Positions 2,745-17,867 of a stretch of 42,514 bases of DNA are shown one piece after another. The DNA comes from an uncultured Ruminococcus sp. (GTDB taxonomy: Bacteria > Bacillota > Clostridia > Oscillospirales > Ruminococcaceae), in NCBI GenBank assembly GCA_902776945.1, contig CACYSH010000008.1:1-42514 (forward strand). The letters are read 5' to 3'. The translations under genes were made by a program, and so were the position numbers. Within the stretch, counting starts at the first letter, position 1. Each line of letters begins with the position of its first letter. The notes under the pieces are model-generated. The model did not search any database and was not told the DNA's origin. It saw only the letters and a program-made list of their open reading frames with translations.

Positions 2745-3371
2745 ATGAACGAAAGAAAAACAATAGCCCTGACCTTCGATGACGGTCCCGACCCCGTGAT
2801 AACTCCGCAGGTGCTTGACCTGCTCGACGAATACAACGCCAAAGCGTCTTTTTTCCTTATCGGCGAACATATCACCCCCGAGACAGAACATCTTATCAGG
2901 CGCGAATACGAATCGGGTCACGAAATAGACCACCACTCGCTCACTCATCAGGATATGACAAAATTCACCCGCGAGGAAATCGCCGCCGAAACAGAGGAGA
3001 CCACCCGCCGCATTGTGTCGGTCATCGGCGAGGAGCCGAAATTCTTCCGCCCCCCGTTCATCTATTACAACGAACTTATGTTCGATACTATTCCCTACCC
3101 GTTCATCTGCGGCGTGGGCTGCAACGACTGGGAGCCTGATTTCCCCGCCGACGAACGCGCAAAAAAGATGCTTTCCTCCGCCGCCGACGGCGTAATGTTC
3201 CTGCTGCACGATATGAAATGGAACGACAAGACCGTTCAGGCGCTGAAAACCGTAATGCCCGAGCTTGCGGCGCAGGGCTATGAATTTGTCACGCTGACCG
3301 AGCTTTTCGCGATACACGGCAGAAAGCCGCAGCCGCGCATTCTTTACAGCAATGTTTTTCAGGATAAATAA
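2745..3371 (+). CDS. Polysaccharide deacetylase (NodB homology domain)
   Basis: This 208-residue protein is a carbohydrate esterase family 4 enzyme, a metal-dependent deacetylase of N-acetylated sugars in peptidoglycan, chitin or exopolysaccharide. TFDDGPDP near residues 9-16 supplies the catalytic Asp and metal Asp. HHSLTHQD near residue 65 gives the two metal-binding His. RPPF near residue 102 is motif 3, and LLHD near residue 150 carries the late His. No signal peptide or membrane segment is visible, so it is either cytoplasmic or exported by another route. A strong AAAGGAGAA ribosome-binding site fixes the start. It stands alone between repeats and a convergent gene. Confidence 0.88.
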   Translation: MNERKTIALTFDDGPDPVITPQVLDLLDEYNAKASFFLIGEHITPETEHLIRREYESGHEIDHHSLTHQDMTKFTREEIAAETEETTRRIVSVIGEEPKFFRPPFIYYNELMFDTIPYPFICGVGCNDWEPDFPADERAKKMLSSAADGVMFLLHDMKWNDKTVQALKTVMPELAAQGYEFVTLTELFAIHGRKPQPRILYSNVFQDK

Positions 3372-13536: not shown

Positions 13537-13873
13537 ATTAAAAAACACCTCCGAAAAAGGGAATAAGGCACAAAAAAACCGCCATGCCGTCGTATGAGAT
13601 AATAAAACCCGCAAAAGCAGGACGGGTAAAACGCCCCAAAAGCATCACGCTCCCTTCGTCCGATCCTGATTTTACACGGCTCACGCGGTGCCAGGCGGGA
13701 GGTCTGCATTAGCTTAACGGAGAGCGAATCCCTGATTACATAAGTGTTGGATTAAATTGAACCCATACTAACGAACACAGCAGTAATTTTGACAATATTA
13801 AATTTTTTGCGGAAGCCTTAAAAGCCCCCTGATGTATTATTACCGCAATACCCGGTAAATATACCTTAGCTTA
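13537..13873 (-). other. Structured intergenic leader of unknown class
   Basis: No gene is seen here. On the minus strand a possible promoter (TTGTCA near 13784-13789, TAGTAT after a longer 19-base spacer) is followed by paired elements: CGCTCTCC with GGGAGCG (enclosing about 70 bases), AAAATCA with TGATGCTTTT, GGACG with CGTCC, and ACCCG...CGGGT before TTTATT, which may be a weak terminator. The decamer TGGCACCGCG matches the T-box core, but Stem I and correct T-box flanks are missing. Likely a regulatory leader for the gene at 13536; class not identified. Confidence 0.4.
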
Positions 13874-14191
13874 TCAGTCCTCTTCTTCCTCGTCGCCGTA
13901 TTTCTCGGCAATGAATTTCAGGAAAGCCTCTCCGACGCGGTCGTATTCCTCCTCATCGTCGATAGTGACCATAAGCTCTTCATCGCCCTCAAACTTGCTC
14001 TTAAGGATAACCAGCTCGCCATCCTCGGGAGCGTCCTCGGGGTTCTCTATATAAGGTGTAAGTCCGAAATACTTCTCGCCTTCAAAGCTGAGAATATCGA
14101 CCAGCTCGAACTCGGTCTCGTTGCCCTCATCATCTTCAAGTACATAAATATCGGGCGTATATTCATTCATTCCGCTTGTCATCTCGTCCAT
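13874..14191 (-). CDS. DUF1292 domain-containing protein (YrzB-like)
   Basis: This 105-residue acidic protein has the DUF1292 pattern: IYVLEDDEGNETEFELVDILSFEGEKYFGLTPY (about residues 15-48), then GELVILKSKFEGDEELMVTIDDEEEYDRV. The family is widespread in Firmicutes, often beside yrzL and yrrK, and has no settled function. It ends in a run of acidic residues. A full AGGAGG site sits eight bases before the ATG. It has its own perfect promoter (14254-14282), which diverges from the promoter of the large RNA. Confidence 0.88.
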   Translation of the reverse strand: MDEMTSGMNEYTPDIYVLEDDEGNETEFELVDILSFEGEKYFGLTPYIENPEDAPEDGELVILKSKFEGDEELMVTIDDEEEYDRVGEAFLKFIAEKYGDEEEED

Positions 14192-14253
14192 ATTATTTTC
14201 CTCCTAAAGTACATTTCCTTAACTTTCCAAAATAATCACGCGCTTACATAGAT

Positions 14254-14282
14254 ATTATATCACAGCTTGCCTTATTTGTCAA
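14254..14282 (-). promoter_or_regulatory. Promoter of the DUF1292 gene
   Basis: On the minus strand TTGACA (14277-14282) and TATAAT (14254-14259) are separated by 17 bases; both hexamers are perfect. It lies back to back with the plus-strand promoter at 14341, about 60 bases apart. Confidence 0.88.
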
Positions 14283-14340
14283 GTAGTAATTGTATACAAA
14301 ATTAGTCACAAAAATTTTCTTGTAATCTTGAAAAAAACTA

Positions 14341-14369
14341 TTGACATTCTCCTTCGTATGTGCTATAAT
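14341..14369 (+). promoter_or_regulatory. Perfect consensus promoter of the large structured RNA
   Basis: TTGACA (14341-14346), a 17-base spacer and TATAAT (14364-14369) are all at consensus, preceded by A/T tracts that could act as an UP element. The start site would be near 14376. A promoter this strong ahead of 1.67 kb without an ordinary gene suggests an abundant RNA. Confidence 0.9.
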
Positions 14370-15275
14370 AACATCAGAGAAAAGAAAACAGCATAAAGAA
14401 ACAGAAAGATAGCTCAAAGGCAGCCGAAAGGCTTCAAAGAAGGCTATCGGGAAACGGATAAGGTGCAGTTCTTTTTTCGGAAACGTCACCTTGGAACACG
14501 GCAGAGGTTCATCGACCGGTCAATACATTGCATGGCTTGACCAATGACGGTAGGTGCTGCTGAATGTTTCTAATTTGGCAGGAAGGGAGCGAGTCCAATG
14601 GATGTTTCTGAAATTCAGCAGAGTTCTCCGAAGCTCGCTGGCAGCCGTTAGTTTAAGAGAGATTCCCGAACGAATTGGGAGACAGGCGTTCGCCCCGCAT
14701 TAGTTCCCCGGGATCTGAATAGTATGATGAAATAAACGGCGGGCTTGAGTTTTGGTTATGACGATCATAACATAATGTCCTTGTTGACTTTACTCTGCTC
14801 GAAAGTTCTCTTCTCTAAAATTGAATAGCCGCAGTATACGGCAAATGGTTTTCTTTAAGCTCCGCACGGTGCGGAACAGTATCACATACAAAGGGTTGAT
14901 TCCTATGATTTTAAGAGGTTTTAAACCGAATATCATCTGAATAAGGAGTGTTTCCCATGTACTAACTGATTTGATACCCGTAATTTTCTATAAAGGGTGT
15001 GTCGCCTATGAAAGTACACATGAGATTTACGGATATAAAATAAGTCAGGAGTGTTTCCGATGTACTAAATGATTTTTCCCCGACACCTTAAAGACTTCGT
15101 AAAAGGGGCGTGACGCTTATGAGAGTTACCCGGAGATTTACGAATAAATAGATGTTTGGAGTGATTCCCATGTACAATTTGGTTTTCAGGTCGGATTAGT
15201 TTTCTGACCGCCGGATAAGACCCGGCACCGTTTTTTCCTTAGAATTCACACAGTCCGAATATTTCGCATCGGTCG

Positions 15276-15460
15276 GAAGGTTTGCCGCTTAATGTCACGG
15301 CGAGGGGTTTCCGGGGGCGAAGCAGTAGGAGGACTCTTAAAATATTACGATCGGAGTTGGTGTTTTATGAAAGTATTAGGCACCTCGAAGCGACGGGATA
15401 TTAAAGCGTAAGGAGTGAGTCCAAAGGTTTATTTAGCTTGACATTTACGACACTATTCAG
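15276..15460 (+). repeat. Large-RNA module A
   Basis: This is the first of three tandem modules. It opens with GGAAGG and CCGCTTAATGTCACGG (AATGTCA at 15291-15297) and closes with TTGACATTTACGAC (TGACATT at 15439-15445). Inside are a hairpin GGTG (15359-15362)/CACC (15381-15384) with TTTATGAAAGT in the loop, the motif GGAGTGAGTCC (15412-15422) and TATTTAGC. Module spacing to B is 234 bp. Confidence 0.8.
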
Positions 15461-15507
15461 AGCGTAATGCTTTGAACTTCCCGCTGTTCGGAGCGACGGG
15501 GCGCATT

Positions 15508-15690
15508 GGAAGGGGTTTCCGCATAATGTCACGGGAGACTTACAGGCGCGGGTCGGTCGTTCCAGATGAACAGACCACATTCTACATACAGGAGTGATGT
15601 GTTATGATTCAGCTCACATCGAAGAGGTTTGAATTTTAGCGCGAAAGGGTGAGTCCAAAGAACTATTTAGCTTGACATTTACGACTTTTA
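15508..15690 (+). repeat. Large-RNA module B
   Basis: AATGTCA is at 15525-15531 and TGACATT at 15673-15679, the same 155-base span as in module A. The central hairpin is GATGTG (15596-15601)/CACATC (15615-15620) with a 13-base loop containing TTATGATT. A variable insert forms the hairpin GGTC...GTTC/GAAC...GACC (15551-15576). GGGTGAGTCCAAAG follows at 15647-15660. Confidence 0.8.
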
Positions 15691-15739
15691 CTTCAAGTAT
15701 AGCTTGAATCACCGGCATTCCGGCTCAAAGGACGGCTGA

Positions 15740-15915
15740 CAGGTGAACTTCCGATAATGTCACGGAGGGGAACTCGGCAGAGCGTAAGAGCGCGGGGTGA
15801 GCCACAGTTTGAACAAGAGAGGTGATGTGCTATGAAAATGCTCACATCGAAGAGGTTAGATATTTAGCATTAAGGGGTGAGTCCGAAGTACTATTCAGCT
15901 TGACATTTACGCTTA
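15740..15915 (+). repeat. Large-RNA module C
   Basis: AATGTCA is at 15756-15762 and TGACATT at 15901-15907. The central hairpin is GATGTG (15824-15829)/CACATC (15843-15848) with a 13-base loop holding CTATGAAAATG. GGGGTGAGTCC is at 15874-15884. The linker from module B is made of two hairpins, TTCAAG/CTTGAA and CCGG/CCGG (15693-15724). Confidence 0.8.
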
Positions 15916-16018
15916 GTGCCTAAAGGTACAATTTATCTGAAAGGATAGAGTCCAATGAGATAGATACTTTTCACATAATCTATGAAAGGTGTAAATTCCA
16001 ATGGCTTAATAAATTATC

Positions 16019-16050
16019 AGTCCGCAGGCGGGTTGTCCTGCGGACTTTTT
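16019..16050 (+). terminator. Intrinsic terminator of the large RNA
   Basis: AGTCCGCAGG (16019-16028) and CCTGCGGACT (16037-16046) form a perfect ten-pair stem with an eight-base loop, followed by TTTTT. Confidence 0.93.
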
Positions 16051-16114
16051 GTTCCCCCGGCACCCGCGCAGACGGTTAATGAGATTTTGTGAGTTTACAG
16101 TCCTCAATTCATAA

Positions 16115-16151
16115 GAAAAAGCCCCGACGGCAATGACCGACAAGGGCTTTT
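16115..16151. terminator. Bidirectional terminator between the large RNA and prfC
   Basis: AAAAAGCCCCGACGG and CCGACAAGGGCTTTT pair with an A tract on one side and a T tract on the other, so it can stop transcription from both directions. On the minus strand it is the likely end of the prfC transcript. Confidence 0.8.
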
Positions 16152-16242: not shown

Positions 16243-17844
16243 TTATTGCAGGTCTCCCCTGCTGAACTCCGAAAGCTCCAAGCCCTCGTTGCGCTCCAGC
16301 GCCCAGCGAATATTCCATTCGCTCGTGAACAGCAGCAGCGGACGGTCGCGCATATCGGTAACGACCTTCGTGTCGGAGCTTATCTTCAAATCCTTCGCTT
16401 CAACGGGCGATTTGTCTATTCACCTGATGTGCGAATAACTAAGCCCCTCTTTGAGCATATCCACGCCGTATTCGTTCTTCATGCGGTACTCGAAAACGTC
16501 GAATTGCAGCACGCCCACAACGCCGACGATTATCTCCTCCATGCCGAGCAGCGGCTCGCGGAAGATCTGAATTGCGCCTTCCTGCGCGATCTGCGTGATG
16601 CCCTTAACGAACTGCTTGCGCTTCATCGTGTCCTTCGAGCGGTAGCGCATGAAATGCTCCGGCGCAAAAGTGGGGATTCCCTCGAACATGAACTTCTTGT
16701 TCGGAGCGCAAACCGTGTCGCCTATCGAGAAAATACCCGGGTCAAACACGCCGATGATGTCGCCCGCGTAGGCTTCGTCGATGATCTCGCGCTCCTGCGC
16801 CATGATCTGCTGCGGCTGCGAAAGGCGCATTTTCTTCCCGCCCTGAACGTGAAGTACGTCCATTTCCTTGTCGAACTTGCCCGAGCAGACGCGCAGGAAC
16901 GTGATTCTGTCGCGGTGCGCCTTGTTCATGTTCGCCTGGATCTTGAACACGAATGCCGAGAAATCGGGCGAGAACGGGTCGATAACGCCTTCGGTCGAGG
17001 TGCGCGGCATCGGCGGCGGGGTCATTTCGAGGAACTTTTCGAGGAACGGTTCAACGCCGAAATTCGTCAGCGCCGAGCCAAAAAACACAGGTGAGAGCCG
17101 CCCGTTATGCACCGCTTCAAGGTCAAGCTCGTCCGACGCGCCGTCAAGCAGCTCGATGTCGTCTTTGAGCGCTTCATAATTGGTGTCGCCAAGAATGTCG
17201 GCAAGCGCGGGGTCGGAGAGGTCAGCTTCGGTCGCCGAGACCTTGTGGCTGCCGCCCGTCGGGTCGAAGTAGATAACGTGGCGGCTGCGGCGGTCGAACA
17301 CGCCCTTGAACTCCTTGCCCGAGCCGATGGGCCAGTTGATCGGGCAGGTGGGCATACCAAGCTCGTTTTCGATCTCGTCGATGAGTTCGAACGGGCTGCG
17401 GGCCTCGCGGTCGAGCTTGTTGATAAACGTGAATATCGGGATATGCCGCATCGCGCAGACCTTGAACAGCTTGCGGGTCTGATTCTCCACGCCCTTTGAA
17501 GCGTCGATGACCATGACCGCCGAATCCGCCGCCATAAGTGTGCGGTAGGTGTCCTCCGAGAAGTCCTGATGTCCCGGCGTGTCGAGAATGTTGATAACGT
17601 GTCCCTCGTAGCTGAACTGCATTACCGAAGATGTTACCGAGATCCCGCGCTGTTTTTCAATCTCCATCCAGTCGGAAACGGCGTGACGGGCGTTCTTTTT
17701 GCCCTTTACCGCGCCCGCCTGCGCGATAGCCCCGCCGTACAGCAGGAATTTTTCGGTAAGCGTAGTTTTACCTGCGTCGGGGTGCGAGATTATGGCGAAG
17801 GTACGCCGTCTTTTTATTTCGTCAACTAAATTTGTATTTGCCAA
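16243..17844 (-). CDS. prfC: Peptide chain release factor 3 with an in-frame UGA at codon 475
   Basis: RF3 is the GTPase that removes RF1 or RF2 from the ribosome after peptide release. The translated product has the G motifs SHPDAGKTTLTEK, RGISVTSSVMQF, DTPGHQDFS and NKLDREA, then domains II and III with GVVGVLQFDVFEYRMKNEYGV. At codon 475 (16420-16422), after SYSHIR, the codon is TGA where the family has Trp (HIR-W-ID). The same frame continues for 58 codons with a family-like end (TDMRDRPLLLF, WALERNEGLELSEF) to TAA at 16243. The full length of 533 residues is normal. I chose TTG 17844 because GGAGG lies seven bases ahead. Other genes here use TGA as stop, so UGA is not a sense codon generally. 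Either UGA readthrough, a nonsense mutation or a sequence error is involved. Confidence 0.9.
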
Positions 17845-17867
17845 TTTAATTCCTCCGCTTTGCAAAA

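Follow-up and report, generated by a model that had tools for sequence, protein, structure and literature searches.

The stretch analysed here, hereafter the window, comprises 42,514 nucleotides (nt) of contig CACYSH010000008.1 from a metagenome-assembled genome (MAG) of an uncultured Ruminococcus sp. (GCA_902776945.1). Our subject is a transcript on its forward strand, which we call the array RNA and which is predicted to run for ~1.68 kb from promoter to terminator (14376..16051). A promoter that matches the consensus exactly, TTGACA-N17-TATAAT, lies at 14341..14369 (+), with TTGACA at 14341 and TATAAT at 14364, and its position places the predicted transcription start near 14376. At the other end, an intrinsic terminator with a ten-pair stem, AGTCCGCAGG/CCTGCGGACT, followed by TTTTTG, occupies 16019..16046 (+). 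The original prediction had described a perfect promoter and a ten-pair terminator that delimit a single transcript of unknown class made of tandem repeated modules, and all of these were found; among the direct repeats, a 90-nt unit appears three times at a spacing of about 230 nt. It had also claimed that the transcript holds no ordinary gene. This is right insofar as the ORF list of the window contains no plus-strand open reading frame (ORF) of at least 80 aa inside the array RNA, which led us to reject a hidden long ORF, but the same RNA has 12 listed micro-ORFs of 2–17 codons with Shine-Dalgarno (SD) sequences. Compared across related loci, the element is very probably a conserved tandem array of micro-ORF start sites.

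A DNA search among Ruminococcus relatives, one of the checks proposed with the original prediction, recovered the array RNA in every one of the 13 genus genomes, among them that of the window. All 18 homologues examined, which come from this genus and others, have the promoter (L058, truncated by the end of its contig, was excluded as a nineteenth), and the homologous transcripts are 0.82–1.91 kb long with a GC-rich terminator. The terminator script missed L054 only, where a terminator is visible by eye and the end was set by hand; in L044 it took a second, later stem. Because of this conservation in both gene and promoter, the unit exceeds what chance would produce. The Rfam scan, also proposed at the outset, gave no match at the gathering threshold in the window, and we therefore rejected any known Rfam class for the array RNA. 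At E ≤ 10, the interval 14250–16150 returned five weak matches (E 0.8–7.7), none of them to OLE, GOLLD, ROOL, HEARO or raiA, and these five families were also absent among the gathering matches in 40 related loci. There was no match to 6S RNA (RF00013) inside 14376–16051, the 6S gene being a neighbour. ARAGORN detected no tRNA in the window and no tmRNA with its tRNA-like domain and tag ORF, and both identities were rejected.

Plain DNA search across the family reached only 12 of 297 genomes, so we relied instead on a motif pattern and on anchoring to a divergent DUF1292 gene that is a frequent neighbour of the array (13874..14191 on the minus strand in the window, 105 aa; Pfam PF06949, E 1.2e-14). 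Array architecture recurs beside this gene across the family. To avoid counting relatives, anchoring used about one genome per genus, with three genera represented twice. We examined 70 of the DUF1292 matches listed (30 loci and 40 more), and the 49 that had a promoter within 60–500 nt form the set used below unless stated otherwise. An earlier set of 173 sequence-unique modules was drawn from 50 loci. Of one group of 40 loci considered for it, 31 entered, namely all 29 with DUF1292 plus L106 and L109, and the nine without DUF1292 in the stretch were left out (L099–L102, L104, L111, L122, L136 and L137).

When homologues are compared side by side, chains of modules such as AAGGAGTGTTTCCC-ATG TAC TAA become visible. 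The window RNA has dipeptide modules of this kind at 14940..14965 (AAGGAGTGTTTCCC-ATGTACTAA, MY*), 15043..15068 (MY*), 15938..15963 (ATGAGATAG, MR*) and, as the last of the array, 15984..16009 (ATGGCTTAA, MA*); a further module, GGAGTGATTCCC-ATG, opens the ORF MYNLVFRSD* (15153..15199; all on the plus strand). The 49 loci contain 146 modules with an SD and CCN-AUG, compared with 8.25 after dinucleotide shuffling and 10 on the antisense strand. They occur in 48 loci, with two or more in 39. ATGs without an SD, or with an SD but without CCN, showed no such excess over shuffles. Dipeptide ORFs follow in 54 of the 146 modules, against 10 and 6 in the other two frames and 0.3 in shuffled sequence, and 34 of the 49 loci have a di- or tripeptide ORF. 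Similarly, in the earlier set, where GG..TCCN-ATG modules were found in 48 of the 50 loci, 85 of 173 modules have their first frame-0 stop at codon 3, compared with 6 and 2 for the other two frames, and a further 21 stop at codon 4. The 85 stops are mixed (TAA 40, TAG 29, TGA 16), as are the second codons (Ala 43, Arg 16, Tyr 7, Glu 7, Lys 5, others 7). Since the second residue varies, it is the length of the ORF, more than the residue, that is conserved. Two-codon minigenes, understood as an SD, an AUG, one sense codon and a stop under selection, were thus found, and the signal is frame-specific.

Other modules open longer ORFs. The ORF1 module, GGGAGCGAGTCCA-ATG, at 14581..14651 (+) is the best conserved segment of the array in the genus; its ORF (14598–14651) encodes MDVSEIQQSSPKLAGSR and ends in TAG. 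Counterparts of 13–29 residues were found in 38 of the 49 loci. Of these 38, 23 have a glutamate at residue 5 and 34 an acidic residue at positions 3–6, compared with 0 and 2 and with 1 and 8, respectively, in the other two frames; the acidic residues are encoded by both GAA/GAG and GAC/GAT, and the peptide is highly variable past residue 6. Downstream, on the same strand, the window RNA carries the micro-ORFs MILRGFKPNII* (14888..14940), MKVHMRFTDIK* (14991..15043), MRVTRRFTNK* (15102..15151), MKVLGTSKRRDIKA* (15350..15411), MIQLTSKRFEF* (15587..15639), whose AUG sits in a GATGTG/CACATC hairpin, and MKMLTSKRLDI* (15815..15867). Recurrent basic micro-ORFs end in [ND]I or [ED]F. In 40 micro-ORF units picked by their upstream motif only, the first stop lies at most 14 nt before the next module 39 times in frame 0, and 0 and 8 times in frames 1 and 2. 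A prior count of 55 of 56, against 1 and 15, was biased because the ORFs had been picked by frame-0 length. The stops of 65 collected micro-ORFs are again mixed (TAG 27, TAA 23, TGA 15), and their closeness to the next start would suit coupling or reinitiation. Given the in-frame placement of stops, the ORF ends that track the next module and the acidic start of ORF1, the modules look selected as start sites.

The module motif AAGGAGUGAGUCC is an altered copy of AAGGAGGUGAUCC, the perfect complement of the 16S 3' end. The 16S 3' end of the genus, GGCTGGATCACCTCCTTTCT, was seen in one of the 13 genus genomes, and none was found in the window's own MAG. The predicted duplex with this end has a mean energy of −13.7 kcal/mol for the 146 modules and −9.9 for a control of 32 gene starts, taken by hand from the window's ORF list. 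On the sense strand, the 49 loci contain 55 copies of the strict core GTGAGTCC, where about 0.8 are expected, and the antisense strand has none; 25 of the copies are followed by an AUG and 30 are not. We used this core to choose two sets of modules for scrambling of the stretch after the SD, which weakened pairing from −15.75 to −11.57 in 29 modules without AUG and from −13.43 to −9.10 in 25 with AUG, both native values lying beyond all 100 scrambles. In these and in the hairpin analyses below, identical sequences were merged and the L056 ORF (MLGV...) was excluded as overlapping a module. In the window RNA itself, 13 sites reach −12 kcal/mol or better, seven of them with an AUG 8–28 nt further on, while 16 other window stretches have 1–6 and two shuffles 3–4. 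A looser core with AUG was counted 99 times, against 2.5 in shuffled and 3 in antisense sequence.

Modules without AUG are represented in the window by GGAGTGAGTCCAAAG (15412..15426), with AAG at the place of the AUG, GGGTGAGTCCAAAG (15647..15660) and GGGGTGAGTCCGAAG (15874..15888), all on the plus strand. Each is followed by a tail motif, TTGACATT at 15438–15445 in the first case, and at 15672–15679 and 15900–15907 in the others. The site reads AAG in this genus and often CC elsewhere. Among modules without AUG, clear enrichment is limited to the strict GTGAGTCC form, whose copies pair better still and further toward helix 45, with −19.6 kcal/mol (29 modules) compared with −14.9 for the 25 AUG modules against the extended tail. 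Across genera in the 49 loci, these strict modules often share a downstream R-(CC/AA)..TTTAG[CT] (15412–15445 in the window). As modules with and without AUG both pair, the common element appears to be the 16S complement, with the start being optional.

As far as the motif can tell, the range of the array is the family. Of 396 family genomes, 69 carry the module pattern GGNGTGAGTCCRAWG, at 103 sites and in 26 of 126 genera; the reversed pattern gave three. Across the class the module pattern matched 9 of 341 genomes, seven of them outside the family; the control gave four. Matches at class level are thus at background, which is why we limit the range to the family, in a class sample to which the order's other families contributed just 10 genomes. 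The B-A covariance model R1, which is narrow with only seven pairs, matched 5 of 394 genomes of the order, all in this family. Carriers of the genus-type module (22 stretches) include MAGs from rumen, rabbit and roe deer, labelled Ruminococcus sp. or Clostridia bacterium, as well as Ruminococcus sp. YE71, a sequenced strain of the genus.

The original prediction had called the RNA dense in hairpins, which the folding analysis does not confirm. The mean folding z-score in 200-nt windows is −0.75 for the window RNA and −0.11, −0.34, −0.14 and +0.02 for four homologues. With values this near zero, the five RNAs fold about like shuffled sequence, and on these scores, with no R-scape-type covariation analysis made, we rejected a globally stable fold, although single windows stand out, such as both ends of the window RNA (−2.4 and −3.5). 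Together with modules that look like translation starts, this leaves the idea of a densely structured non-coding RNA of the OLE, GOLLD or ROOL kind wrong or unsupported. At a local scale, hairpins around the AUG of micro-ORFs are visible (GATGTG/CACATC, GATGC/GCATC and GTGCAA/TTGCAC), and the best AUG stem in 60 units averages 5.75 versus 5.50 ± 0.11 with re-paired arms, a slight excess. By eye in the alignment, the SD GAAAGG of the MR* module (15938..15963) could pair with a downstream CTTTTC. A loop motif, AATGTCAC, at 15291..15298 (+), with copies at 15525–15532 and 15756–15763, is complementary to the tail TTGACATT (AATGTCA/TGACATT), which makes a local pairing plausible. Loop and tail flank each pair of micro-ORF and non-AUG module and multiply with it as one block, in equal numbers in 12 of the 13 genus RNAs (L054 has two loops and one tail). 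They are invariant, so covariation cannot be shown; a kissing interaction that encloses the micro-ORF is possible. In L105, from another genus, the tail GCTTCC of a module without AUG is complementary by eye to the next SD, GGAAGC (modules near 2530–2600 and 2957–3030, oriented coordinates), which suggests SD sequestration.

Beyond the DUF1292 gene, on the same strand as that gene, lies a 6S (SsrS) RNA gene (13572..13789, −) that the standard Rfam scan missed, as it scores 42.5 bits against a gathering cut-off of 46.4. A 6S match was found in all 13 genus genomes, six above the cut-off and seven below, the window's genome among the latter, and in 12 of the 13 it lies about 0.55–0.6 kb from the array start. 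It is adjacent in 26 of 30 DUF1292-anchored loci. Of two further scans of 20 loci each, one found it at gathering level in 12 and the other in 9; these loci partly overlap the 30, and some of the stretches stop short of the 6S side. On the other side of the array, the next long ORF differs between loci in position and strand and is convergent in the window. No regulated downstream cistron was found on the same transcript, as the terminator precedes the next gene. Near the arrays of other loci we also observed an RNase P RNA (L131, 1–320, −) and a SAM riboswitch (L124, 2595–2715; L126, 690–810).

From these features we consider it a serious possibility, at slightly less than even chances, that the locus encodes a dedicated ribosome-engaging decoy RNA. 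More tentatively, this may be a regulatory RNA of a new type, a "ribosome parking" transcript present across the family that would form with 6S a paired decoy locus for RNA polymerase and the ribosome. The pairing of transcription and translation decoys is attractive and rests on synteny. The sequence strongly supports the anatomy behind this reading, in which the consensus promoter drives a 0.8–1.9 kb RNA with a train of 16S-complementary modules. In one type, an AUG follows at SD-like spacing and leads to a stop after one or two codons, or to a micro-ORF of up to about 25 codons, those of 10–15 codons stopping just short of the following module. The other type has the 16S complement without AUG. 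On both, 30S subunits would be bound through an unusually long SD:anti-SD duplex. AUG modules would allow initiation, synthesis of a formyl-dipeptide and termination while the ribosome is still tethered. Because a one-codon ORF ends before the ribosome leaves the SD duplex, it might restart in place or stay. Start-less modules would hold 30S subunits without initiation. If abundant, such an RNA would keep 30S subunits or initiation capacity parked or buffered while no protein is made, as a counterpart in translation to the 6S RNA encoded next to it.

Several observations weigh against this interpretation. By the rule used, 21 of the 70 DUF1292 loci lack the promoter and were excluded from the counts. 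Even among the 49, ten loci have none or one of the SD and CCN-AUG modules, and di- or tripeptide ORFs are confined to the 34 loci given above. Such a modest number of modules would suit a titrating sponge poorly unless the RNA reached very high levels. In its looser form, the core without AUG is barely above its antisense count (179 versus 170, with 117 in shuffled sequence), and the downstream motif shared by the strict non-AUG modules is unexplained by ribosome binding or 16S pairing alone. A pure decoy does not need the conserved peptide features of ORF1 and of the 10–15-codon ORFs. The synonymous excess in ORF1 is itself weak within the genus (14 synonymous to 20 non-synonymous changes, compared with 7:23 and 9:26 in the other frames). 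Synteny with 6S is not proof of a common role, and it is not universal: in G002 the array lies away from 6S and DUF1292, with 6S about 20 kb off on the same contig, and in G022 the promoter and an ORF1-like module are on another contig than DUF1292 and 6S. These separations indicate that the array is a gene of its own, usually but not always beside 6S.

Other functions would account for some of the same features. The closeness of stops to the next module (39 of 40 units), which suits reinitiation or coupling, would also be expected of a sensor of translation status, in which ribosome occupancy of the micro-ORFs chooses between RNA folds or stabilities, similar to leader-peptide attenuators and to GCN4-type counting of multiple upstream ORFs (uORFs). 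The AUGs placed in local hairpins, the SD able to pair with CTTTTC, and the loop AATGTCAC and tail TTGACATT that flank each block in matching numbers are consistent with such a device. We nevertheless regard such a sensor, whose output would be the fold or lifetime of the RNA itself, as unlikely: the RNA has its own terminator, no cistron is seen downstream, where the next ORF changes position and strand between loci, and the re-pairing comparison lends the AUG stems weak support. Somewhat less likely still is an operon of micropeptides, with ORF1 and the 10–15-codon products acting as signals or regulators and the dipeptide ORFs as spacers. The acidic N-terminus of ORF1 across genera and the recurrent basic micro-ORFs with their [ND]I or [ED]F ends would fit active peptides, but the commonest product is a dipeptide with a variable second residue (A, R, Y, E, K and others), modules without AUG yield no peptide, and ORF1 is very variable beyond residue 6.

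Pairing with 16S could alternatively serve the rRNA itself. Modules might act on the 3' end of (pre-)16S in processing or quality control, with the stops preventing harmful translation; the best pairing by modules without AUG, which reach deeper into the 3' strand of helix 45, would agree with this. We think such a chaperone or maturation RNA improbable, as the distance to the AUG and the position of the stops look like the result of selection for initiation and not just tolerated. The proposal of a classical large structured non-coding RNA with incidental SD-like motifs, as in the original prediction, can appeal to the self-contained transcript, the lack of an ordinary gene, the modular repeats and some conserved complementarity. 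Already disfavoured by folding z-scores near zero in five RNAs and by the frame-specific placement of stops, it is in our view very improbable. The many AGGA/GGAG repeats, finally, recall a CsrB-type protein sponge with repeated GGA motifs, to which we assign a negligible probability: AUGs and in-frame stops would be superfluous in a sponge, and a CsrA sponge was rejected as the window's own genome, 93% complete, has no match to PF02599, a search that found matches in the control genomes of E. coli, B. subtilis and T. maritima.

A ribosome-engaging decoy would have partial parallels in known systems. 6S RNA holds RNA polymerase by imitating an open promoter. Besides adjoining the array, it shares with the role proposed here the principle of a decoy mimicking a core machine's usual substrate, but it is a compact open-promoter mimic of about 190 nt, whereas the array would mimic translation starts over 0.8–1.9 kb with little structure. 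The lambda bar gene is a two-codon minigene. Passages of PMC8708949 describe mg2 of axe-txe as another such minigene, located in the leader of another gene and with a regulatory translation. Like the array modules, these minigenes place an AUG, one codon and a stop behind a start signal; as described in those passages, mg2 differs in belonging to the leader of another gene, while the array has tandem ORFs on a dedicated transcript, modules without AUG and extended 16S complementarity. Several very short ORFs in a row are also seen in the leader of GCN4, a eukaryotic, scanning-based system of multiple uORFs with a downstream main ORF; the array is bacterial and has no main ORF. The tarsal-less/polished rice gene produces a polycistronic RNA with several ~11-aa ORFs and so resembles the array in carrying several short ORFs on one transcript, but it is not known to have dipeptide cistrons or 16S complementarity, and we know of no peptide motif common to the two. 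OLE, GOLLD, ROOL, raiA and HEARO are likewise large stand-alone transcripts without an ordinary gene; the array differs from them in its start-site modules, its low overall structure and the absence of a match to them at E ≤ 10.

We found nothing like a dedicated tandem start-site array in the open-licence literature of PubMed Central, a scope that leaves aside most subscription papers and preprints. A term search of the main text of two RNA-discovery papers (PMC11109978 and PMC8632094) likewise turned up no comparable array and no mention of Ruminococcus, and a passage of the latter names 6S as a regulator of RNA polymerase. ORFs as short as these make the array hardly visible to annotation pipelines. 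In bacteria, 6S serves as a decoy RNA that holds RNA polymerase, and ribosomes are idled by proteins. If the decoy interpretation is true, an RNA that strings together many translation start sites would add a third way of holding core machines. It makes the buffering of initiation capacity and the deliberate use of two-codon ORFs testable, and bears on the role of the uncharacterised DUF1292/6S locus in gut and rumen Clostridia.

Downstream of the array, the frame of prfC, encoding peptide chain release factor 3 (16420–17865, −), ends early within the C-terminal domain, with RF3_C matched to position 87 of 132, which points to a broken gene or an assembly error. At the corresponding place, the close relative L043 has an ORF of 533 aa.

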